From: a candidate division WWE3 bacterium
Lineage (GTDB): Bacteria; Patescibacteriota; WWE3; JAPLWK01
Direction: 5' to 3'
DNA: 38,709 nucleotides
Assembly (NCBI GenBank): GCA_026396615.1
Contig: JAPLWK010000006.1
Location: forward strand, 1 to 38,709
Shown here: piece by piece, positions 7,801-25,409 of the stretch
How the letters are laid out: the number at the start of each line of letters is the position of its first letter
Numbering within the stretch: the stretch's first letter is position 1
Notes under the pieces: model-generated
Database searches by the model: none
Seen by the model: only the letters and a program-made list of their open reading frames with translations
Told to the model about the DNA's origin: nothing
Made by a program: the position numbers and the translations under genes

Positions 7801-9433
7801 TCGTACCGGATGACGTCAGTCCTGTTCCTCCCGTGATCGCGCCGGCGTTGGTAATGCCACCGCCGTTATTATTAATGCCGCCGGTAATGCTAGCGCCAAC
7901 AACCCTTAGAGTGCCATTAACGTCAAGGGTGTACTGCGGATCGTTCGTGCCAATGCCGATTTTGTCGCCAATAGTTGAGGGGAACAACTTACCACCGTTC
8001 CTGCTCCAGTAACCAATGGTGCCGCTGGTCCCGCCGCCAATCCATGTCAAACCTCCTGAGCCATCGTTCTGTAACAGGGCATTAGACAGCCCCTGCGTCG
8101 TTGGCCATGAATAGGGGATTCCACGGATTCCGGACAGATTTCCACGGATAGTGGTATTGCCGGTGAGGTCAGAAGTTCCTGTCACAGCAAGGTTACCGCT
8201 GACTGTCGCCGAGCCGCCGACGCCAAGGTTCTTATCTAAAGTAACGTCATCGGTAAAGTGGCCGGTGCCAACGACGTCAAGCTTACTCGTAGGTGTGGCG
8301 GTACCAATTCCCAGCATGTCTGTAAGGCTTGTCATATATAATGTGCCATTACCTTGAGTCCATTTTATGGGAGTAAAGACCGTTGCCACGTGCCCACTCA
8401 AGCTGACCGTGGTGTCACCACTACCAATCATTTCAAAGTAGTCAGTATTGCTGCCAGCCGTTAGTGTTGCGCCACCAACCCGGAACTCTTTAAAGATGTT
8501 TTGACTGGTGCCTTTGTCAGTGTTTGTCACCGTGTCGCCGCTAAGAGCCAGACCGGGACCAACTTTTAGAGTAGCGTCGCCGGTCTGCCCCAGAAATGAC
8601 AAAACGCCAGTGTTGGTAATAATGGGATTTTGACCGGTCGAAACGCTAATTCCCGGTCCGGCGGCCACACTATATAAGAGGTTAGACGCCGCCACCGTTT
8701 TGGCGGTAATGGTTTGGCCAGAAGCATCTATTGATGCCTTAAAAATAGTAGGCACTGCGAAGGTCATGGTGGGGGTGGTTTTAGTTGTAGTGGCGGCAAG
8801 AACCTGAGCTAGACCCAGATTTTTGACCGCTGGTTGTTTTTCCGATTTTCCCAGTAATGTTAGCCCCGTTTTTGCTTGATTAATTCCATTTTCCAGACGA
8901 CCGTAAATTCCTCCGGCGCCGTTGTATTTAAGAGCGGCGACACCAAGCAGGGTGACGGCCAGCATGGCAAGCAGGCTGGCGAATCGCAAACTCTGCGTTA
9001 CATTTGTTCTCGCAGGAACGTCGGGGTACAGTATTTCTTCCGGGGTTGCGTTCAACAACAACGTAGGGGTCGCATTCATGCGACCCTCGGCCGGTTGGAT
9101 CGAGGGCCGGATAAATCCGGCCCCTACGTATGGTAAAACGTGGTCGACAGAATGAACCATCGGCCCGCTCACGACTTGATTTCTTGATTGGATTGCCTTC
9201 TTGTTACTAACTTCTAATTTGTAGGCTTTGAGTTTTTCGGCATCGCTGGCTTTATATAAACGACTGCCGTTTGCATCTCTTTGAGACTCCAAAATACCTT
9301 CAGATTCCCATCGACGAATTGTAGATGCCGAAACACCCGAAAGGGCTGAAAGTTCGCTTGGTGTCAAGTTAAAATTGGCAGTATTTTCCATGAGCAGTTT
9401 TTGGGGCATATCGAAGATTTCTATACTTCTCAC
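1868..9433 (-). CDS. Giant surface protein: MerR-like HTH, TM segment, VGIGT-repeat stalk, peptidase S74 domain
   Basis: 2521 residues. Residues about 20-70 form a MerR-type winged HTH (LTPSELSALSGVSASTIRRW, then GSRLYKASDAEKL). Residues about 148-169 are a membrane segment (LRFASLLAMLAVTLLGVAAL). The rest is an extracellular Gly/Thr/Ser/Asn-rich stalk with about 13 copies of a VGIGT-x2-P-x4-LDV motif, as in tail fibres and CPR adhesins. Near residue 2248 begins an S74 intramolecular chaperone/autoprotease domain (SSDQRLKTNI), followed by about 170 more residues that self-cleavage could separate. A genomic palindromic repeat is inserted in frame at residues 102-125, between HTH and membrane. 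The GTG start lies about 13 nt after a consensus -10 box; ATG at 9409 or 9391 are alternatives and the HTH is intact with any of them. Attachment is the likely role; whether the HTH binds DNA is unknown. Confidence 0.85.
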   Translation of the reverse strand: MRSIEIFDMPQKLLMENTANFNLTPSELSALSGVSASTIRRWESEGILESQRDANGSRLYKASDAEKLKAYKLEVSNKKAIQSRNQVVSGPMVHSVDHVLPYVGAGFIRPSIQPAEGRMNATPTLLLNATPEEILYPDVPARTNVTQSLRFASLLAMLAVTLLGVAALKYNGAGGIYGRLENGINQAKTGLTLLGKSEKQPAVKNLGLAQVLAATTTKTTPTMTFAVPTIFKASIDASGQTITAKTVAASNLLYSVAAGPGISVSTGQNPIITNTGVLSFLGQTGDATLKVGPGLALSGDTVTNTDKGTSQNIFKEFRVGGATLTAGSNTDYFEMIGSGDTTVSLSGHVATVFTPIKWTQGNGTLYMTSLTDMLGIGTATPTSKLDVVGTGHFTDDVTLDKNLGVGGSATVSGNLAVTGTSDLTGNTTIRGNLSGIRGIPYSWPTTQGLSNALLQNDGSGGLTWIGGGTSGTIGYWSRNGGKLFPSTIGDKIGIGTNDPQYTLDVNGTLRVVGASITGGINNNGGGITNAGAITGGTGLTSSGTITFSGLDNGVVRSSLAGVLSTGDVNLASEVTGTLGVTHGGTGLAAITEGAMLYASAANTLTTLGAGTENQVMVVNSQGKPSWGELTNPGGICPNCVIKNPNATQTITAGQADATGLSVKQAAAGSVDVFNVIDNAGTLKYLAVTPTGDIQFGGGSTARDTIIISPAAAGAVQHTGTISSLDLTADRTYTLPNRSGSICVDTGNCAGLSGSIGGSGVLGYVPVYTDTYMLTSSHIYDNGNVGIGTITPGSKLSTTDLAVGATYQNSAAPTSGAIFEGNVGIGILVPTTKLYVAGTFKATGAGVFTDTLGVTGATTLSSTLGVTGDITDGGNLNINGLGKSWVAGSFGVGNTNPTLATLDVTGTGAFSSTLTAANGFTLGSTAVTATGTQLNYLNAATGTTGTTTTNIVYSTSPSLVTPGITGGTLTGLTGLAIRDTSAAFDVTIAGTSSTALTTGRTLTLDMANATATLKLGSNFIGNGTATVTGINTGDNAANSSTMYIGTTAHALNRASAAEGLSGITGLTPNADFTLTQNSVATLTSIEAGAVVNTLYLKAGRVGIGTITPATPLDVVGNIQSNATIIGGDMTLGNKSTSGLSYQFTGRAAVLNSTGYLDFSNYNSSVSLDHATGNLSGYAFLEDVGWVAFGTVDNSSGPVNVNMSTGVVTGKAKVLNTGNFLDFTLYGSNVIFNVNTGIATGYVFSEDVGWIAVGATDNPSGGVRFDNSAVVQTLATNQGLTIDPNGTGMLYLHGPNYKFSSTGDFTMGSNLTFGNNGLAQISTSYNNNLAIMTGTGNVGIGTTTPATTFDVLGGKFNVTSAGLVGVGTTTPTSTFSVGASSQFQVNSTGNIVKLNNVTTSFPASQGATNSILTNDSAGNLTWSNPASTGILGYWNRTGTTLAPTNANDGLSIPSTATTTDIVAVTPSALTTGNGLNIATSGNTLTSGHLLNLSSTLTNTTFTGSLANVDWSPAGSTQIVNTGDLVKINVGQYGTIGNLLNITDNGNSIFSVSQTALTANLPASFNAAGDTTMAYDLNFSNTTLGNIRSAANLSMIAGEAFNSSNLGLQTFNSGQLVLDLAGGATMNQAQNWTLNTAVNALNFQNASLGSILSIDSTNNRVGIGTASPAVKLDVVGGINATGTIYGGNLNVAAGGNLQWAARSTVTSTADGVINLLNNATTGFTRLNFGGTTSSFPALAVNGSDLQVIRADGSTNANLFVTGSVGIGNTNSTSAFSVGASSQFQVNSTGNIVKLNNVTTSFPASQGAANSILTNDSAGNLTWANPASTGVLGYWNRTGTTLAPTNANDGLSIPSTATTSDAVNIATSGNNLTSGHLLNVNSNLTNTTFTGSLANIDWSPAGSTQIVNTGDLVKINVGQYGTIGNLLNITDNTNSIFSVSQTAITAGLPTSFTAAGDVAIAYDLAFTNTTASTIKSKASLYLTAGPTYASNNLNLVTYNSGQIVLDSPGGAFLQQNQAWTLNTDVNALNFQNQSLTSLLSLDATNSRVGIGTIAPATTFDVGGGKFNVTSAGLVGIGAITPAAKLDVASTQTTGTLSLLHAPSATVLTGALTGLNLDLSTNYTAAGFNVSGQTIAMPAVTNTGAGTYSYNGLSVTGGALIQNTGAGVNTWNGLNITMPNITQTTGTVTSTGLKITGGTVASGTSYGLIIDANAGNVGIGVAAPTGKLAVSDLGGTGNRAVYSDANGNLTNSSSDQRLKTNIVTISDTTNVLDDLSKLRGVYYNWNTGVDAAKYLGSQREMGMIAQEVGAVLPELVGTNANGYESLDYPKMAGFLVEVAKAQQTQLSDLKALMASPSAMLAGATTAVDLGKINVDVNMYKKLNVLGKTTLGDVGITGTITVGLLTIDGLDPMGGVTINSLSGTLSFLNGDITMNSKGLLATAVTAEAFNVKGASNAGHAVLLAGTKTLVVPSTGIGATSLVMLTPEATASATLGVIEKKAGSSFKVVTTSPVPSDLPFSWLVIGSE
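3300..5310 (-). repeat. Two long diverged internal repeats in the adhesin stalk
   Basis: The segments at about 3300-4110 and 4450-5310 are homologous along their length, offset by about 1.16-1.20 kb. Both encode the series LxLDxTNxRVGIG, ...GSLANVDWSPAGSTQIVNT..., ...ILGYWNRTGTTLAPTNAND. The second contains a short extra stretch (around VAVTPSALTTGNG). It is probably a tandem duplication that has since diverged; such repeats promote length variation by recombination. Confidence 0.75.
9060..9130. repeat. Palindromic repeat family A, in frame inside the adhesin gene
   Basis: Outer arms ACGTAGGGG and CCCCTACGT enclose two inner hairpins (TCGCATTCATGCGA and CCGGATAAATCCGG) and a CCCTCG/CGAGGG pair. 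Here it reads in frame as a roughly 24-residue peptide between the HTH and the transmembrane segment of the giant surface protein. Confidence 0.85.
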
Positions 9434-9446
9434 ATGCCGTAGTTAA

Positions 9447-9474
9447 AGTATATAAAAAGGGAAGAGGGTGTCAA
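9447..9474 (-). promoter_or_regulatory. Sigma70-type promoter of the giant adhesin gene
   Basis: On the minus strand TTGACA (9474-9469) is followed after 16 nt by TATACT (9452-9447). The predicted transcript start lies only a few bases before the GTG at 9433, so the mRNA would be leaderless or nearly so; an ATG at 9409 would have a leader of about 30 nt. Confidence 0.7.
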
Positions 9475-9508
9475 GAGGATGTTGGAATTTTTAACAACAA
9501 AAATTTAA

Positions 9509-9610
9509 AAACGTAGGGGCGGGATTAACATTACCGATTAACGTAGGGGTCGCATTCATGCGACCCTCGATCAAATCGGCCGAGGGCAGCATAAATGCGA
9601 CCCCTACGTT
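9509..9610. repeat. Palindromic repeat family A, compound copy left of RAYT
   Basis: A half unit (ACGTAGGGGCGGGATTAAC...) precedes a full unit with arms ACGTAGGGG/CCCCTACGTT. The copy at 10486-10579 starts with the same compound sequence, so the transposase gene is bracketed by two near-identical direct copies. Confidence 0.85.
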
Positions 9611-9639
9611 GCCTTTTTATGTTGTGGTAAATTTAATCC

Positions 9640-10491
9640 ATGGATTCCTATTACGAACGGCGATCACCGCGACTTCACAAATTTGATTATTCCTCAGAAA
9701 ATATGTATTTTGTGACAATTTGTAATTATCAACGGAATTGTACGTTTGGGAGAATCATTAATAATAACGTAGGGGCGGGGCATGCCCCGTCCGATTCAAA
9801 CGTAGGGGCGGGATTTATCCCGCCCTCGGACGATCGTACCGAGGGTCGCATAAATGCGACCCCTACGTTAATTAATGAATTTTCGGATATCCTAACTCTC
9901 GATTCTCCTGGTGAAATGTTATTTAATGATTGGGGCTTAATTGTGAAACAAACTTGGGAGGAACTACCAAAATATTTTCCAAAAATCACTCTTTACGATT
10001 TCAATATAATGCCTAACCACATTCACGGATTAATTCAAATCGAGGGTTCAATTGGAGAAAATTATAGAAAATACCAGGAACAAATAAAAACGTTTGACAC
10101 AAAATTGATTAATTCTGTTGAAAATTCGTCAGAAGAAACAAATGAAAAAACCAACGTAGGGGAGGAGCATGATATCAATTCGATAAACGTAGGGGAGGGG
10201 CATGCCCCTCCCTCGATCCAATCGGCCGACGGCGAGGCATGCCTCGCCCCTACGTTTACTTTGGGGGAAGGCGTCGCCCCTAAGTTGATGACGATTATTG
10301 GCTCTTTTAAATCTGCCGTTTCTAAACAAATCCATGAAACATCTTCGTACCAAGGTCAAATTTGGCAACGCAGTTTTTACGATCATATTATTTGGGATGA
10401 CGACGATTACAAACGCATTGCCGGTTACATAAAATTTAATCCCAAAGTTTGGGATCGGGATCGCAATAACCCTATTCGTATAAAAACGTAG
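9640..10491 (+). CDS. REP-associated tyrosine transposase (RAYT, Y1/IS200-like), interrupted in frame by its own repeats
   Basis: 283 residues. The HUH motif is PNHIHGLI (H127, H129); the C-terminal GQIWQRSFYDHII segment (candidate catalytic Y247) and AGYIKFNPKVW are typical of the TnpA_REP/Y1 single-strand transposase family. YFVTIC near residue 23 is the usual first strand. RAYTs act on palindromic REP sequences, and this gene is framed by family-A repeats. Two repeat copies are also inserted in frame, at about residues 42-77 and 171-213, lengthening the protein beyond a typical RAYT. The stop codon TAG is supplied by the first bases of the right-hand repeat (acgtag). Activity is uncertain because of the insertions, which lie in loop-like regions away from the HUH motif and the Tyr. 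Confidence 0.85.
   Translation: MDSYYERRSPRLHKFDYSSENMYFVTICNYQRNCTFGRIINNNVGAGHAPSDSNVGAGFIPPSDDRTEGRINATPTLINEFSDILTLDSPGEMLFNDWGLIVKQTWEELPKYFPKITLYDFNIMPNHIHGLIQIEGSIGENYRKYQEQIKTFDTKLINSVENSSEETNEKTNVGEEHDINSINVGEGHAPPSIQSADGEACLAPTFTLGEGVAPKLMTIIGSFKSAVSKQIHETSSYQGQIWQRSFYDHIIWDDDDYKRIAGYIKFNPKVWDRDRNNPIRIKT
9768..9869. repeat. Palindromic repeat family A inside RAYT (first)
   Basis: A half unit (GTAGGGGCGGGGCATGCCCCG) plus a full unit ending CCCCTACGTT, translated in frame as ...[12 protein letters not shown]...[10 protein letters not shown].... Same peptide as at 22033-22103 in leuS. Confidence 0.85.
10154..10256. repeat. Palindromic repeat family A inside RAYT (second)
   Basis: A half unit plus a full unit with inner hairpins GAGGGGCATGCCCCTC and GGCGAGGCATGCCTCGCC, read in frame as NVGEGHAPPS...EACLAPT. 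A further decayed right arm (GCGTCGCCCCTAAGTT) follows at about 10270. Confidence 0.85.
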
Positions 10492-10579
10492 GGGCGGGAT
10501 TAACATTACCGATTAACGTAGGGGCGGGATTCATCCCGCCCTCGATCGATACCGAGGGCAGCATAAATGCCCCTACGTT
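10486..10579. repeat. Palindromic repeat family A, compound copy right of RAYT
   Basis: Direct counterpart of the copy at 9509-9610; begins with the same half unit and ends CCCCTACGTT. It overlaps the RAYT stop codon and lies just upstream of the promoter of the DGR target gene. Confidence 0.85.
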
Positions 10580-10629: not shown

Positions 10630-11478
10630 ATGCGTAAGTTTCTAATATATTCCTCCCTCATTATCCTCACGCTTTTTGTGATCTTTAAAGTTGGTGGGGC
10701 AGTCCTCGCCGAACAAAGTGGCTCTTCTCCCGATTCCGGTGCCAGTACTTCTAAAATTAAAACTATTTCCACCGCCGTCGCCGCTCTTAGCTACGGCTCC
10801 ATAAGTGCTGGCACTTGGGGCGACTGGGGTACTATGTGGAATCGGATTTACTCCGCGGCTATTGTGGGTTTTAATGACTCTTTAGTGGCTGGTTTAAAAA
10901 ATGGTAGCGGCACTGGTACCATTGTGGCTTACACTAAGGCTCTCGGCGGGGTAGACGACTACAACTACAACCAAACCATTCCCAGCGATACATACAAAAG
11001 AACTTGGGTCACTTGTAATTCCGGTAATACCTATTGCGGCACCGGTCGCAGCGTTCTTAACGGTTTAGTGTCTCAGGATCCCAACACTAATTTGGTCTGG
11101 AGTCCTCAGATTAATGCCTCTAGTACCTGGTTTGTCGCTAATAACTGCATTCCCCCGGGGAGTAGTGGTAATTTGGGATATCCGGCGGGCACTTGTGTTA
11201 ATAATGGTGATGTTTCCTGTGTCTGCGTTAAAAATACCAGCCCTAAAACCGGTTGCGAAAATTACGATGACGGCTTATGGCGTTTGCCGTACCAAAAAGA
11301 GTTAATGCAATCTTATATCGATGGTTCTTGGGGCAACCTGGCTACCGCCAGTGCGTATTACTGGGCGTCGGCTACGACCAGTAACGCTACCCAGTACGCC
11401 TGGTACACGTTCCAGGCCAGTGGGTACACGTACACCAACAGTAAGACGGTTACGTACTCTGTTCGTTGCGTTCGCTAG
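10630..11478 (+). CDS. DGR target protein: membrane-anchored/secreted protein with C-terminal lectin-like variable domain
   Basis: 282 residues from the ATG at 10630. Residues about 2-24 form a hydrophobic signal/anchor (KFLIYSSLIILTLFVIFKV). The middle is Gly/Ser/Asn-rich with several cysteines (TCNSGNTYCGTG, NNCIPPG, GDVSCVCV). The C-terminal part has the DUF1566-like pattern GLWRLPYQKELMQSYIDG... ending SVRCVR, a C-type-lectin-type fold used by many DGR targets. The last about 44 residues are encoded by the variable repeat. Residues differing from the template are mostly Tyr, Ser, Thr, Ala, Phe and Val in place of Asn. The likely role is a diversified surface binding protein; the ligand is unknown. 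It faces the RT cassette convergently and is followed by a terminator. Confidence 0.88.
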   Translation: MRKFLIYSSLIILTLFVIFKVGGAVLAEQSGSSPDSGASTSKIKTISTAVAALSYGSISAGTWGDWGTMWNRIYSAAIVGFNDSLVAGLKNGSGTGTIVAYTKALGGVDDYNYNQTIPSDTYKRTWVTCNSGNTYCGTGRSVLNGLVSQDPNTNLVWSPQINASSTWFVANNCIPPGSSGNLGYPAGTCVNNGDVSCVCVKNTSPKTGCENYDDGLWRLPYQKELMQSYIDGSWGNLATASAYYWASATTSNATQYAWYTFQASGYTYTNSKTVTYSVRCVR

Positions 11479-11484
11479 CCTTGG
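11343..11484 (+). repeat. DGR variable repeat (VR)
   Basis: 142 bp aligned without gaps to the reverse complement of 13744-13885. I count 21 differences in 17 codons, and at every one the template has adenine: A to G, C or T. The last roughly 30 bp (CTCTGTTCG...GCTAGCCTTGG), which include the stop codon, are identical and would serve as the initiation-of-mutagenic-homing region. Of 18 AAY codons in the template, 16 are altered in the VR. Confidence 0.95.
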
Positions 11485-11591
11485 CCTTTTGAAATTTTGG
11501 CCGATTTGGATTTTTGGAACGTGGGGTTTTGGTGGTTGCTTTTCCTAAACTTCTGTGGTATCTTAATGCTACAACAAGTTACCAGCGACAA

Positions 11592-11672
11592 ATTCCCGGG
11601 TCGGGAAAAGTTAGCCGCAAGGCAAAACTAACTGGGACACTGACCTCGCCAATAGGCGAGGTTTTTATTTGG
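11592..11672 (+). terminator. Hairpin cluster and rho-independent terminator after the DGR target
   Basis: TTCCCG-GGT-CGGGAA (about 11593-11607) and GTTAG...CTAAC hairpins precede a strong terminator, CCTCGCC (11644-11650), AATA, GGCGAGG (11655-11661), followed by a T-run. The run of three structures could be a 3' UTR fold or, for the first hairpin, a DGR target-site hairpin; the latter is speculative because it lies about 110 bp beyond the VR. Confidence 0.7.
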
Positions 11673-12243
11673 AGACACTCTCTAAAGCAGATTGGAGAAG
11701 ATAAATCCCGGCAATTCGCTGTTTCTTCTGAAGCTTTTTAAGTAGACTCTGGGCCAACTCTTCGTTCGGTTTATCGTAGCAATATCGCACCAAACCAGCT
11801 ATGGAATCGGCCAGCTGGATACCGACATTGCCAGTACTGCGAACGGTTTTCAGTCTCCAAACTTCAATGCCTCTGTCCCGTAAAACCTTTTTGAGTTTTT
11901 GCTCGTACCACCGGGGCTTTTTACCATCAATGACGATTGTTCTGACTATTGGTTCGGTAATTAATTGTTTAAAAACGGCTTCAATCATTGCTTGTGGGTG
12001 AGCGGGATTCTTAAAGACTGCTACTTTAACAACAAAATCTAACCCGGAGATCTTATTGAGAAATTTCTCGCGCATAAACCATCTTTCTTCAGCCCAGTGG
12101 AAGTAAGCAATTCGAAGATCCCTTTCGATCTGAGTTAAATCCGCTTCAAACTTTTCTTTATTAATAACCTGAACGTAAACAACTGCGGTTGTAGTGTGGC
12201 CTTCCTGCTTATGTGTTCCTGATTCGTCAATGAAAACAACCAC
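11665..12243 (-). CDS. DUF3800 protein coupled to the DGR reverse transcriptase
   Basis: 192 residues. The N-terminal VVFIDESGTH and C-terminal VGIQLADSIAGLVRY are the two hallmark motifs of DUF3800, a family that I recall being placed in the RNase H-like superfamily, with acidic residues (here D6, E7 and the late D of QLAD) as candidate metal ligands. The GTG start overlaps the last base of the RT stop codon (TAGTG), implying translational coupling, so this is the last gene of the DGR cassette. DGR RTs have no RNase H domain; a partner that processes the RNA/cDNA hybrid would make sense but is inference. No SD sequence is needed if ribosomes reinitiate. DUF3800 proteins also occur alone, so its role here is not established. 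Confidence 0.8.
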   Translation of the reverse strand: MVVFIDESGTHKQEGHTTTAVVYVQVINKEKFEADLTQIERDLRIAYFHWAEERWFMREKFLNKISGLDFVVKVAVFKNPAHPQAMIEAVFKQLITEPIVRTIVIDGKKPRWYEQKLKKVLRDRGIEVWRLKTVRSTGNVGIQLADSIAGLVRYCYDKPNEELAQSLLKKLQKKQRIAGIYLLQSALESVSK

Positions 12244-13379
12244 TAATTTAGTTTAGCAGATTTTTTAATTCTTAAGTGATGGTAATTTCCCACAACCACA
12301 ATTTTCGATTTAATTTTTAAACTCAAATGCTTTTCGATTAGGTGCTTCCTTAACCGCCCAGTACGGGCTTTTCCAAAATGACCAAAGTACGAATTTAACG
12401 AGGCTACAGCTTTTGTTACATCGTTACGCTTGTTAAATCTGTAAATTTTATTCTTAGCCATTTTAACCACGTTGCGTCGCACCGTAATTCCCCAGGGCTT
12501 AATAAAATAACCCACAAACGCCACACCGTGGCGCGTGGGCTGAATTTGTTGTTTGCGGGGATGTAATACTAGATACAGGCGATCTTTCAAAAATGAAGCT
12601 ATCTCGTTACGCCAGACTTTAATATCTTCTATAGAATCGCTAAAAATTAAGAAGTCGTCGACGTAGCGACCATACGCTTTGCAACCCAACTCATCTGTTA
12701 CAAAATGATCCAGTTCGTTTAAGTAAACATTGGCTAAAAATTGGCTGGTTAAATTACCTATCGGTAGTCCAACTTCCGGTTCCTGATCAAAAAGCGATTT
12801 GCCGGTCGGCACCAGCTTTTTTAAAGCCGGATCGCCTTTGTAATAATAATTTTGAGTGGGGTTATTAAAAATGATGATCCTTGCTAACCACAGAACTTCT
12901 TTCTGCCACCATTCCGGCCTTAATTTGGAGGCTATAATTTTTGAAAAGATTTCATAAAGAGTAGACTTGTTAATGTTGGAAAAGAAACTGCTGATGTCGA
13001 ATTGTCCGTAATAGTCATAGTTCTTCACAAACTCCGCGACCCGTAAAGCGCCAAAATGATGGCCTTTATTTTTACGACAGGCGTAAGAATCGGTTATGAA
13101 AATTTGTTTTTCCCAAATTTGCTGGACTTCGTTTATAAGAATGTGGTGAGTAACGCGGTCGCCAAAGTCGGCCGCAAAGATTTCGCGCGGCTTGGGCACA
13201 GTCACCACAAAACAAATCGAGCGGCCCGGTCGATAAGTCCTAGTCTGCAAAGATTCTTTAAGGTCGACTAAATTATTTTCTAAATTTAATTCATACTTAA
13301 GGGCATTGGTGGTTTTACGCTTAGTTTCGCGGCAATCATAGTAGGCTTTAAGGATATTCGCGACGGTAAAAATGGTCAT
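12243..13379 (-). CDS. DGR reverse transcriptase
   Basis: 378 residues, the usual size of DGR RTs. Conserved blocks in order: RPGRSICFVVTVPKPREI, QFDISSFFSNI (126-136, first catalytic Asp), GLPIGNLTSQFLANVYLNELD (204-224, with the [IVL]GxxxSQ pattern that separates DGR RTs from group II intron RTs), and YGRYVDDFLIF (catalytic YVDD, 239-242). It makes mutagenised cDNA from the TR transcript for transfer into the VR. The ATG directly abuts the TAA of avd upstream, and the TAG overlaps the DUF3800 start, so avd, RT and DUF3800 form one tightly coupled unit. All catalytic residues are present. Confidence 0.95.
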   Translation of the reverse strand: MTIFTVANILKAYYDCRETKRKTTNALKYELNLENNLVDLKESLQTRTYRPGRSICFVVTVPKPREIFAADFGDRVTHHILINEVQQIWEKQIFITDSYACRKNKGHHFGALRVAEFVKNYDYYGQFDISSFFSNINKSTLYEIFSKIIASKLRPEWWQKEVLWLARIIIFNNPTQNYYYKGDPALKKLVPTGKSLFDQEPEVGLPIGNLTSQFLANVYLNELDHFVTDELGCKAYGRYVDDFLIFSDSIEDIKVWRNEIASFLKDRLYLVLHPRKQQIQPTRHGVAFVGYFIKPWGITVRRNVVKMAKNKIYRFNKRNDVTKAVASLNSYFGHFGKARTGRLRKHLIEKHLSLKIKSKIVVVGNYHHLRIKKSAKLN

Positions 13380-13726
13380 TTAAACCTTTGCGACCCAACT
13401 CCCAATCATTTTTCCAATTTCCACAATGTCCTCCGAAATAGCGGCCGCTTGGTTTAAAGAGATTAATTTAAGCTCAGAAAGAAATCTTACGCGGAGTTTA
13501 AAAGAGTCGAATTGTTGATTTAGATTGTTAACAATCGCATTTTTACTCGCCCCCCCCCTCCGCCGATTTGGGCGGCAATAAAAAGGTCAATTAGCTCCCA
13601 ATTGCGGTTAATAATGTCTTGTCCAAGCGAAAACTTATACTCTTTTGGAAGGCTTTTCACAATTAAATACTCCGTTTTAAGGAGGTTCAGAAGCTTAAGG
13701 TACAGGGGCATGTTCTGGTAGAACAT
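13380..13726 (-). CDS. avd: DGR accessory protein Avd, reading frame broken at a G9 tract
   Basis: The first frame (from ATG 13726, or 13711) gives ...LPKEYKFSLGQDIINRNWELIDLFIAAQIGG, the Avd pattern of helices 1-2. It meets a run of nine G (minus strand; C at 13550-13558) and then stops at 13520. In another frame, directly after the run, comes ...SKNAIVNNLNQQFDSFKLRV RFLSELKLISLNQ...VEIGKMIGSWVAKV, the expected helices 3-4, ending with TAA next to the RT ATG. Ten or seven G would restore one frame of about 115 residues, the normal Avd length. Avd is a four-helix bundle that binds RT and template RNA and is required for mutagenesis in studied DGRs. Either the tract is a sequencing/assembly error, or length variation switches Avd on and off. 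Confidence 0.85.
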
Positions 13727-13743
13727 CGCTCTTAGTTTAAAGT

Positions 13744-13885
13744 CCAAGGCTAGCGAACGCAACGAACAGAGTTCGTATTCGTCTTATTGTTGTTGTTCGT
13801 GTTCCCATTGTTCTGGTTCGTGTTCCAGGCGTTCTGGGTATTGTTACTGTTCGTAGTCGACGCCCAGTAATTCGCATTGGCGTTA
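13744..13885 (-). repeat. DGR template repeat (TR)
   Basis: 142 bp, Asn-codon-rich (18 AAC/AAT codons in the VR frame), homologous to the VR in the target gene. It lies directly 5' of avd on the same strand, the usual position, so one transcript could serve as template RNA and mRNA. An AAGGAGG motif about 90 nt upstream of the TR precedes an open frame that crosses the TR, but I do not think that frame is a gene. Confidence 0.95.
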
Positions 13886-13888
13886 ATA

Positions 13889-13933
13889 ATTTACCGCTGT
13901 TAATTATCGTCAAATATTTTTGACGGGGTAAAT
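13889..13933 (-). ncRNA. Stem-loop immediately 5' of the template repeat
   Basis: An outer stem ATTTACC (13889-13895)/GGTAAAT (13927-13933) encloses an inner perfect stem GTCAAA (13909-13914)/TTTGAC (13919-13924) with a 4-nt loop. It begins three bases from the TR and would fold in the template RNA. Flanking RNA structure is important for cDNA synthesis in characterised DGRs; the function here is inferred from position only. Confidence 0.5.
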
Positions 13934-16248: not shown

Positions 16249-16320
16249 AACGTAGGGGAGGGACATGCCCCTCCCTCGATCCAATCGTCCGAGGGCGAGG
16301 CATGCCTCGCCCCTACGTTA
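16249..16320. repeat. Palindromic repeat family A between b-like and delta genes
   Basis: Full unit ACGTAGGGG...CCCCTACGTT with inner hairpins GAGGGACATGCCCCTC and GGCGAGGCATGCCTCGCC, followed by an ATT trinucleotide run. It inserts a structured spacer into the ATPase operon transcript. Confidence 0.85.
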
Positions 16321-20811: not shown

Positions 20812-23421
20812 ATGTCCGATTATCGCCCAACAGAAATAGAACCGAAATGGCAAAAAATCTGGGAAGACTCTCATCTTTATCGTGCGATTGACTCTGATCC
20901 ACGCTCCAAAGCCTACATTCTGTTTGAATTTCCTTATCCGTCTGGGGACCGTTTACATGTTGGTCACGCGCGCTCTTACTCCGCTTTAGACGCTCTGGCC
21001 CGCAAAAAGCGGATGCAGGGCTACAACGTGCTGCTACCAATGGGCTGGGATGCCTTTGGCCTGCCGGCCGAGAACTACGCCATAAAGACCCACACTATTC
21101 CTCAAAAAGTTGTCGCTGAAAACATCGAACACGCCCGCACTCAGGCGAAGAGTTGGGGGCTGTCCGTTGACTGGTCGCGAGAGATCAACACCACCGATCA
21201 GAATTACTACAAGTGGACCCAGTGGATTTTTGTAAAAATGTTCGAACGAGGACTCGCTTATTCGGCGGATCTACCGATAAATTGGTGCCCCAGCTGTAAA
21301 ATTGGTTTAGCCAATGAAGAAGTGGTCGATGCCAAATGTGAGCGTTGTGGTACTGTCACAGAGCGACGAAATGTTACACAATGGGTTCTTCGTATCACAG
21401 ACTATGCTGATAGGTTAATCGATGACTTAGAAACAGTCGACTACTTGCCAAAAATAAAAGCCCAGCAGATTAATTGGATTGGAAGGAGTACAGGAACAAA
21501 CGTCCGATTCTCCACCCGTCATTCCGGGCTTGACCCGGAATCCAGTAACTCCGTCCGATCGAAATCGAATTTACTAGATTCCGGCTCCGGGGCCGGAATG
21601 ACGGGTTTTATTGAGGTCTTCACGACCCGTGTCGACACCATTTACGGTGTTACTGCCATCGTCGTCGCCCCGGAACATCCATTAATTAATAAATTAATCG
21701 AATCTTCGGGAGACCTCTTTCTCGATTCTGTAGGGACGGGGCATGCCCCGTCCTCAACCGATGACGATATAATTAACGAGGTGCGTCATTACGTAGAATC
21801 TGCCAAACGCAAATCGGAACTTGACCGCACCGATCTTTCCAAAGAGAAAACCGGCGTTTTTACCGGTCTCTATGTGAAACATCCTTTGACCGGTGAAAAG
21901 TTGCCGGTCTGGGTAGGGGACTACGTCATCGGTAGTTACGGCGGCGGGGCGGTTATGGTGGTGCCGGCGCATGATGCTCGGGACTACGAGTTTGCTGTTA
22001 AATACAACCTACCAATAAAAACCGTCATACAAAACGTAGGGGCGGGATTCATCCCGCCCTCGGACGATCCAATCGAGGGTCGCATAAATGCGACCCCTAC
22101 GTTGGTATTTTCCGATTATGGTGTCCTGGTAGACTCTGGTTCTTACACAGGTCTCACCTCCGAAGCGGCGATGACCCAAATCACTGCCGACCTGGCCACG
22201 AAAGGCCTAGGATCGTCCGCTAAACATTACCATTTACGAGATTGGATCTTCTCCCGTCAACACTACTGGGGCGAACCGATTCCTTTAATTCACTGTCCTA
22301 AATGTGGCGTTGTGGCCGTTCCAGTTGACCAGCTCCCGGTCAAATTACCTGAAATAGAACACTACGAACCATCTAGTACCGGAGAGTCACCACTTGCCGC
22401 AATGACAGACTGGGTCAATGTACCTTGTCCTAAATGTGGGGAACCGGCCAAGAGAGATACCGATACTATGCCAAACTGGGCGGGGAGTAATTGGTATTTT
22501 GTGGCGTATGTGTTGGCTCAAAAAATCAACGCCCCTACGTTGGAATCGGGTGACATCTTTTCTGCAAATAAAGACCTTCTTAAATACTGGTTGCCAGTAG
22601 ACACATATAACGGTGGCATGGAACACACCACTTTGCATCTTTTATACTCGCGCTTTGTTTATAAATTTTTGTTTGACTTAGGCGTTGTGCCCGGAGTAGA
22701 GCCTTACGCTAAGCGTCGTAGTCATGGAATGATTTTGGGTCCGGATGGCGGTAAGATGAGCAAGTCTCGCGGTAACGTTATTAACCCTGACGATATTGTT
22801 CGCAACTATGGGGCCGATACTCTGCGGATGTACGAGATGTTCATTGGGCCTTTTACCGAGGCCGTGGCCTGGAACCCTGCTGGGGTGGTGGGCGTCAATA
22901 AATTTCTGCACAGAATTTGGAAACTAATAATGACCTCTAAGGCTGACGATGACTCGAATACAGACTTTTTATTAAATAACTTAGTCCACAAGGTTTCCAG
23001 TGACCTTGACGAAAACTCCATGAAGTTTAATACGGCGGTCTCCTCCTTTATGTCGTTCATAAATGAAGTAGAGAAGACCGGCCTTAACGAGGAACAGAAA
23101 GAGACACTCTTAAGATTATTGGCACCGTTTGCACCACATATAACAGAGGAACTTTGGCATCAATTGGGGCATTCAGATAGTGTTCATTCGCAGCCGTGGC
23201 CGAAGTATTTAGAGGGGGTCAAATCCGGCGCCGCTGTTACCATCGTAGTCCAAGTTGCGGGAAAAGTGAGGGGAATGTTGACGGTTTCGGCGGCTGAAGC
23301 TGGCAACCAAGAGCTGGTAACTGCCAAGGCCTTCCAAATGCCGAAGGTACTGGATTATTTGAGTGGGGTCACGCCAGGAGTAGTGTTTGTACCTGGTAAA
23401 ATAATTAACTTTGTTGTGTAA
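20812..23421 (+). CDS. leuS: Leucyl-tRNA synthetase carrying several in-frame repeat insertions
   Basis: 869 residues, class I. HIGH-type signature [15 protein letters not shown] (about 42-56) and KMSKS in [10 protein letters not shown] are intact, as are two zinc-like CxxC pairs ([25 protein letters not shown]). It charges tRNA-Leu; the CP1 domain edits misacylated tRNA. Three genomic repeats lie in frame in or near CP1: family B at about residues 233-264 ([11 protein letters not shown]...), a half family-A unit at about 305-319 (VGTGHAPSS), and a full family-A unit at about 407-430 ([12 protein letters not shown]...[10 protein letters not shown]). A short remnant (INAPTLES) lies near 573. 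As an essential gene it must tolerate them; whether editing is intact is open. Confidence 0.96.
21517..21605. repeat. Palindromic repeat family B, in frame inside leuS
   Basis: GTCATTCCGGGCTTGACCCGG ... CCGGGGCCGGAATGAC palindrome with an about 40-bp centre. It translates in frame as [11 protein letters not shown]...[11 protein letters not shown] within the editing-domain region. Confidence 0.85.
21729..21757. repeat. Half copy of family A, in frame inside leuS
   Basis: GTAGGGACGGGGCATGCCCCGTCC: left arm and first hairpin, read as VGTGHAPSS. Confidence 0.75.
22033..22103. repeat. Full copy of family A, in frame inside leuS
   Basis: AACGTAGGGG ... CCCCTACGTT, with inner hairpins CGGGATTCATCCCG and TCGCATAAATGCGA and a CCCTCG/CGAGGG pair. 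The peptide is the same as in RAYT and is also encoded by the intergenic copy at 25348-25409. Confidence 0.88.
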
Positions 23422-25347: not shown

Positions 25348-25409
25348 AACGTAGGGGCGGGATTCATCCCGCCCTCGATCGAGGGTCGCATAAATGCGAC
25401 CCCTACGTT
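25348..25409. repeat. Palindromic repeat family A between comEC and its MBL partner
   Basis: Short full unit: ACGTAGGGGCGGGATTCATCCCGCCCTCG directly joined to CGAGGGTCGCATAAATGCGACCCCTACGTT, lacking the central spacer. It separates the two halves of the split ComEC. Confidence 0.88.

Follow-up and report, generated by a model that had tools for sequence, protein, structure and literature searches.

How is a targeted mutation machine held in check once it has produced a good variant? To our knowledge this is an open question for diversity-generating retroelements (DGRs), and it is posed by a locus of a candidate division WWE3 bacterium, lying in a stretch of 38,709 nucleotides (contig JAPLWK010000006.1) to which we refer as the window. 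Its variable repeat (VR) carries the marks of mutagenesis templated by the template repeat (TR), and its accessory gene avd is interrupted at a run of nine G's. Conceivably, such an interruption might reflect decay, an error of assembly, a device of gene expression or a switch.

The retroelement of the window and its interrupted avd gene

The window element (Table 1) is confirmed as a genuine DGR, residing in an 826-kb Patescibacteria-type genome and equipped with an Lcl_C target. We recovered its TR/VR pair independently as an 85% inverted repeat and then aligned it base by base. The preliminary description had claimed a gap-free inverted alignment with 21 substitutions in 142 nt, all 21 at TR adenines, and this was borne out, as was the alteration of 16 of the 18 AAY codons of the TR; in the VR the adenines are changed to T, G and C. 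The 3' ends are identical as stated, the final 29 nt of the VR (11456-11484) matching the TR in the manner of an IMH. Immediately beyond the aligned repeat, at 11485, lies a 22nd difference, A-to-C, and with this position included the probability that 22 of 22 differences fall at A is about 2e-12 (hypergeometric). The variable part had been credited with 49 adenines; there are 48 up to the last change, and 50 in the 142 nt of the TR. Past RT-mediated mutagenesis, as proposed, is the sole sensible source of these A-only differences. The suggested genome search with the TR as query yielded neither a third TR copy nor a second VR in the 826 kb, TR and VR being the only two copies.

Table 1. Features of the retroelement and its surroundings in the window
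Feature	Position	Strand	Remarks
Target gene	10630..11478	+	N-terminal signal/TM segment; 'EQSGSSPDSG...GDWGTMWNRI' region; C-terminal Lcl_C domain carrying the VR
Variable repeat (VR)	11343..11484	+	3' end of target gene
DUF3800 gene	11665..12243	-	PF12686 1.5e-8; start overlaps RT stop
DGR reverse transcriptase (RT)	12243..13379	-	RVT_1 5.8e-15
avd (accessory variability determinant)	13380..13726	-	Between TR and RT; frameshifted; bAvd PF22296
G9 tract in avd	13550..13558	-	Proposed phase switch, presently out of frame
Template repeat (TR)	13744..13885	-	18 nt upstream of avd start; 142-nt gap-free VR match

The target matches the C-type-lectin-like family Lcl_C (PF07603, 2.5e-10) over residues 149-282, VR included, and the same family is matched by 11 of 11 aligned target homologues from sampled DGR loci. 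Its AlphaFold model is too weak to be used alone (mean pLDDT 51), and we therefore rely on family evidence for the fold; the nearest solved structure to this low-confidence model is the C-terminal domain of Legionella Lcl (8q4e), with no match at E<=0.001. Of the earlier designation as a membrane-anchored lectin-like protein, the lectin-like part thus holds, whereas the anchor is not established, the N terminus being as compatible with a cleaved signal peptide. The RT retains intact GLPIGNLTSQ and YVDD motifs, as had been noted, and the order of the RT tree places it among the DGR RTs of Patescibacteria. We considered the adjoining DUF3800 gene as a new DGR accessory and ruled this out, because none was found beside the RT at any other sampled DGR locus; it is cargo or passenger rather than a part of the DGR, and a second, 52%-identical copy lies on another contig (C11) between aminoacyl-tRNA synthetase genes, not beside an RT. 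Promoter scanning returned sites no more numerous than in shuffled sequence.

The surroundings of the DGR harbour a palindromic element of about 60-70 nt (AACGTAGGGG...CCCCTACGTT), found at window positions 9060-10579, 16249-16319, 22033-22103 and 25348-25409, whose arms have 38 matches in the genome against 1 for a control. Resembling Rickettsia palindromic elements, the copies are intergenic and also lie in frame inside LeuRS, a ComEC-like protein and a giant repeat-rich protein, to which they add peptides. Beside the DGR, they have likewise invaded in frame a REP-associated tyrosine transposase gene (NF047646, 9640-10491), the product of which may spread them.

The cassette had been called complete. 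As assembled it is not, because avd, on which retrohoming is reported to depend in the model DGR of Bordetella phage (PMC5006420), is out of frame. The gene is open from 13726 to 13559 in one frame and from 13549 to 13380 in another, the break being nine consecutive G's of the coding strand; the two parts of the gene correspond to positions 2-50 and 55-107 of the avd family model in these different frames, and read across the tract it matches bAvd PF22296 at 8.6e-17. The preliminary description missed both this frameshift and the slippery tract, the latter recurring in most related DGRs sampled and being the most informative point. The tract is a potentially unstable repeat of non-triplet unit within a coding region, and its placement is non-random: no other G/C homopolymer of at least 8 nt occurs in the 826-kb genome. 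In the nearest relative, a Paceibacterota MAG (G392; loci L045, L361 and L362), the order is likewise TR-avd-RT with a homologous convergent target, and the avd of L362 is uninterrupted and free of a G run, the loop EAQ-TTNANTGEKKK-IV occupying the site of the window's glycine run. Within the window's own RT subclade a mid-avd tract was seen once, at the window only; this and the tract-free avd of the nearest relative speak against a switch. In the assembly of that relative, each of two contig ends holds part of the RT, the split falling at residue 183; a (GA) run came into consideration there, and the assembly holds no (GA)6.

Repeat tracts at DGR loci of the phylum

Is the G9 tract a singular accident? 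An alignment of ten RTs, used as query against 380 genomes of the phylum, found matches in 126 of them (an earlier contig scan with a single RT had found none), and 146 distinct RT loci were fetched. Many of the RT matches end at one place, just before PLGNLTSQ. With a simple finder, a TR/VR-like pair was detected at 115 of the 146 loci; 1942 of 1991 mismatches lie at A, which shows the presence of TR/VR pairs rather than bias, because the scoring of the finder favours A. Counting G/C runs of 8 or more, dinucleotides of 6 or more units and tetra- or pentanucleotides of 4 or more, we found a tract of G, GA, GT, CT, ATTG or CTGTC inside RT/avd or at their 5' ends at 93 of the 146 loci, where a first-order Markov null predicts about 2 tracts over all zones. 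The 93 tracts fall within 208 kb of RT/avd zone, as compared with 10 in 660 kb of flanks, an approximately 30-fold difference in density (Poisson p ~1e-99). The longest repeats reach 54 nt of GA.

Tracts of this kind were present at 0 of 80 viral DGR loci (Fisher p ~1e-25 against the phylum set) and at 1 of 64 DGR loci of other phyla (p ~1e-19). Against the switch reading counts that a second collection of Patescibacteria loci had a tract at 1 of 16, from which it follows that how common the tracts are varies with lineage and sampling. Loci with a tract cluster on the RT tree, yet the tract has undergone at least 31 changes of state, and its position and unit shift repeatedly.

Genome-wide, these bacteria have few (GA)8 and G9 runs, and most of them lie at DGR genes. 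An exclusive pairing of such runs with DGRs was rejected, as others occur in a methyltransferase-like gene and before secreted-protein genes. In genome G161 (L341), a DNA-methyltransferase/restriction-like gene is broken by (GA)8 into two frames that overlap, as is classic for contingency genes. At L347-L350 (genome G217), each of five G10-13 runs closely precedes a gene of a secreted-protein family (..AINASAQSAWTPAPANAPSGNVAGPL..), one run per family member, which suggests putative phase-variable surface proteins in the same bacteria.

Reading frames and tract lengths among homologues

How do the tracts affect the genes that contain them? At 21 loci the tract is internal to the RT, ahead of either motif 3 (model position ~126) or PLGN (~180), leaving the RT in frame at 10 and out of frame at 11. 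Among the other 125 loci a single RT is frame-broken (L155, with no tract to explain the frameshift), so that 11 of 12 broken RTs break exactly at a repeat tract. Of the 11 out-of-phase RT loci, 9 possess A-diversified VRs; since these loci and the window keep such VRs, the elements must have been active recently.

At most of the remaining tract loci, where avd and RT diverge, the tract occupies the opening codons of avd, and the avd frame stays open across it. Taking avd start codons that were assigned by inference, a caution that weighs against the switch reading, we find that 60 of 67 such tracts are followed by no in-frame start ahead of the avd core, and that an open ATG stands no more than 60 nt upstream of 66 of the 67, where chance would give 43%. 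The closest such ATG is in the avd frame at 16 and in the other two frames at 30 and 20; in another count of avd-start tracts, 23 are in frame, 42 are out of frame and 5 have a start after the tract. About one third of avd-start tracts being in frame, with near-uniform phases, is the expectation for a random repeat length, that is, for a freely slipping tract. Both states are thus found among homologues. It is only among homologues and paralogues that length variation was seen: one genome carries a G10 and a G12 tract in two DGRs that are 90% identical, and further homologous pairs differ as GA16/GA8, G11/G8 and CTGTC x7/x8. These differences, like the placement of the repeats, the frames and the A-only diversification, are direct observations. 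Contig breaks at tracts are suggestive of length heterogeneity and were rejected as proof of it, for paralogous copies could also break an assembly.

Might the frameshift at the G9 tract simply be a homopolymer error of sequencing or assembly, avd being truly intact? The frame hangs on one base in a run of 9 nt, short-read MAG consensus is weakest in repeats, where it can err (a further point against the switch reading), and contig ends divide several related RTs near tract sites. Set against this, the repeats, GA stretches of as much as 54 nt among them, are genuine sequence located specifically in DGR genes, and mixed phases over 67 avd-start tracts are unlike sporadic errors around an intact gene. 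We regard such an error as very improbable.

Ordinary decay would posit that an active DGR was recently inactivated by a chance indel in the G run, no switch being involved. In keeping with decay, the avd of the nearest relative has no tract, and DGRs with broken RTs and A-only VR/TR have been reported before and, in the accessible text of Schillinger 2012 (PMC3521204), are regarded as recently inactivated. They share the broken RT frame and the fresh VR/TR with the out-of-phase loci described here and differ in that this text mentions no repeat tract in connection with the breaks. Decay is nevertheless unlikely given that avd holds the one G8+ run of the 826-kb genome, that the remaining DGR genes of the window are intact, and that tracts are concentrated at DGR genes and coincide with nearly all RT breaks.

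A third possibility is that the tracts serve expression, either because transcriptional or ribosomal slippage constitutively gives some in-frame Avd or RT, or because the tract tunes the promoter or ribosome binding site of the RT where avd and RT diverge. Transcription can slip on G runs, and on the opposite strand the conserved RT start follows many avd-start tracts at a distance of about 60 nt or less. Di-, tetra- and pentanucleotide units and several RT-internal positions are hard to square with transcription slippage, however, and tract lengths vary between homologues. A role in expression accordingly seems to us a doubtful explanation.

Proposed phase-variable hypermutation

From the repeats and reading frames, we consider it probable that the window DGR is a phase-variable (contingency) locus, at which slipped-strand slippage would switch DGR mutagenesis on and off. 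We envision that, with avd in frame, the Avd-RT complex would copy TR RNA with adenine errors and the resulting cDNA would replace the VR of the surface-exposed Lcl_C protein. Replication slippage at the G tract would put avd out of frame and stop Avd. The avd stop codon and the RT start codon adjoin without a gap (TAAATG), and RT and DUF3800 overlap at the stop of the former and the start of the latter; an out-of-frame avd would therefore probably uncouple translation of the RT too and lower its level. The VR would then be frozen until a later slip restored the avd frame. In related DGRs, (GA)n, (GT)n, (CT)n, G, ATTG or CTGTC tracts in the first codons of avd or in RT linkers might do the switching. 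Reversible slippage within a population, and its effect on mutagenesis, are what we infer here. More generally, it is likely that in many Patescibacteria targeted hypermutation is itself phase-variable through repeat slippage in avd or RT, having evolved repeatedly with different sites and units. A lineage would thus keep its surface binding protein frozen at some times and diversify it at others, a two-tier form of evolvability in which slippage would control retro-mutagenesis.

Simple-sequence-repeat contingency loci were reportedly described by Moxon in 2006 as phase-variable surface and restriction-modification genes of pathogens. The DGRs share with them a non-triplet repeat in an open reading frame, near its start or in a linker, along with mixed phases and length differences between homologues. 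They differ in that the switched gene belongs to a targeted mutation machine, which would make this a second-order switch. DGRs of Candidate Phyla Radiation (CPR) bacteria are likewise said to have been treated by Paul in 2017. DGRs in this group, and avd, are already known; a repeat-tract phase switch of a DGR is not found in the literature searched, our search for DGR switching by phase variation or slippage having found no report, with subscription papers such as Paul 2017 beyond its reach. The main text of Roux 2021 (PMC8144416), as far as accessible, describes DGR clade 2 as restricted to Patescibacteria with below-average VR activity, and mentions neither frameshift nor phase variation. 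With CPR and clade 2 DGRs the window element shares the RT, bAvd, A-only TR/VR changes, a C-type-lectin-like target and a host of small genome; in contrast to these elements as described, its avd is out of frame at a repeat tract.

What would a phase switch mean for these bacteria? The pipeline of Roux 2021, by its accessible text, required RTs of 250-550 aa (PMC8144416), and out-of-phase RTs would therefore drop out. Surveys that require full-length RT genes would, we suggest, overlook many elements that just happen to be switched off. Tract switching could also help to explain the lower apparent activity of Patescibacteria DGRs noted in that text (PMC8144416). A repeat-tract switch would be a concrete, sequence-readable answer to the question of how DGRs are restrained, and tract length should then predict VR activity in metagenomes.
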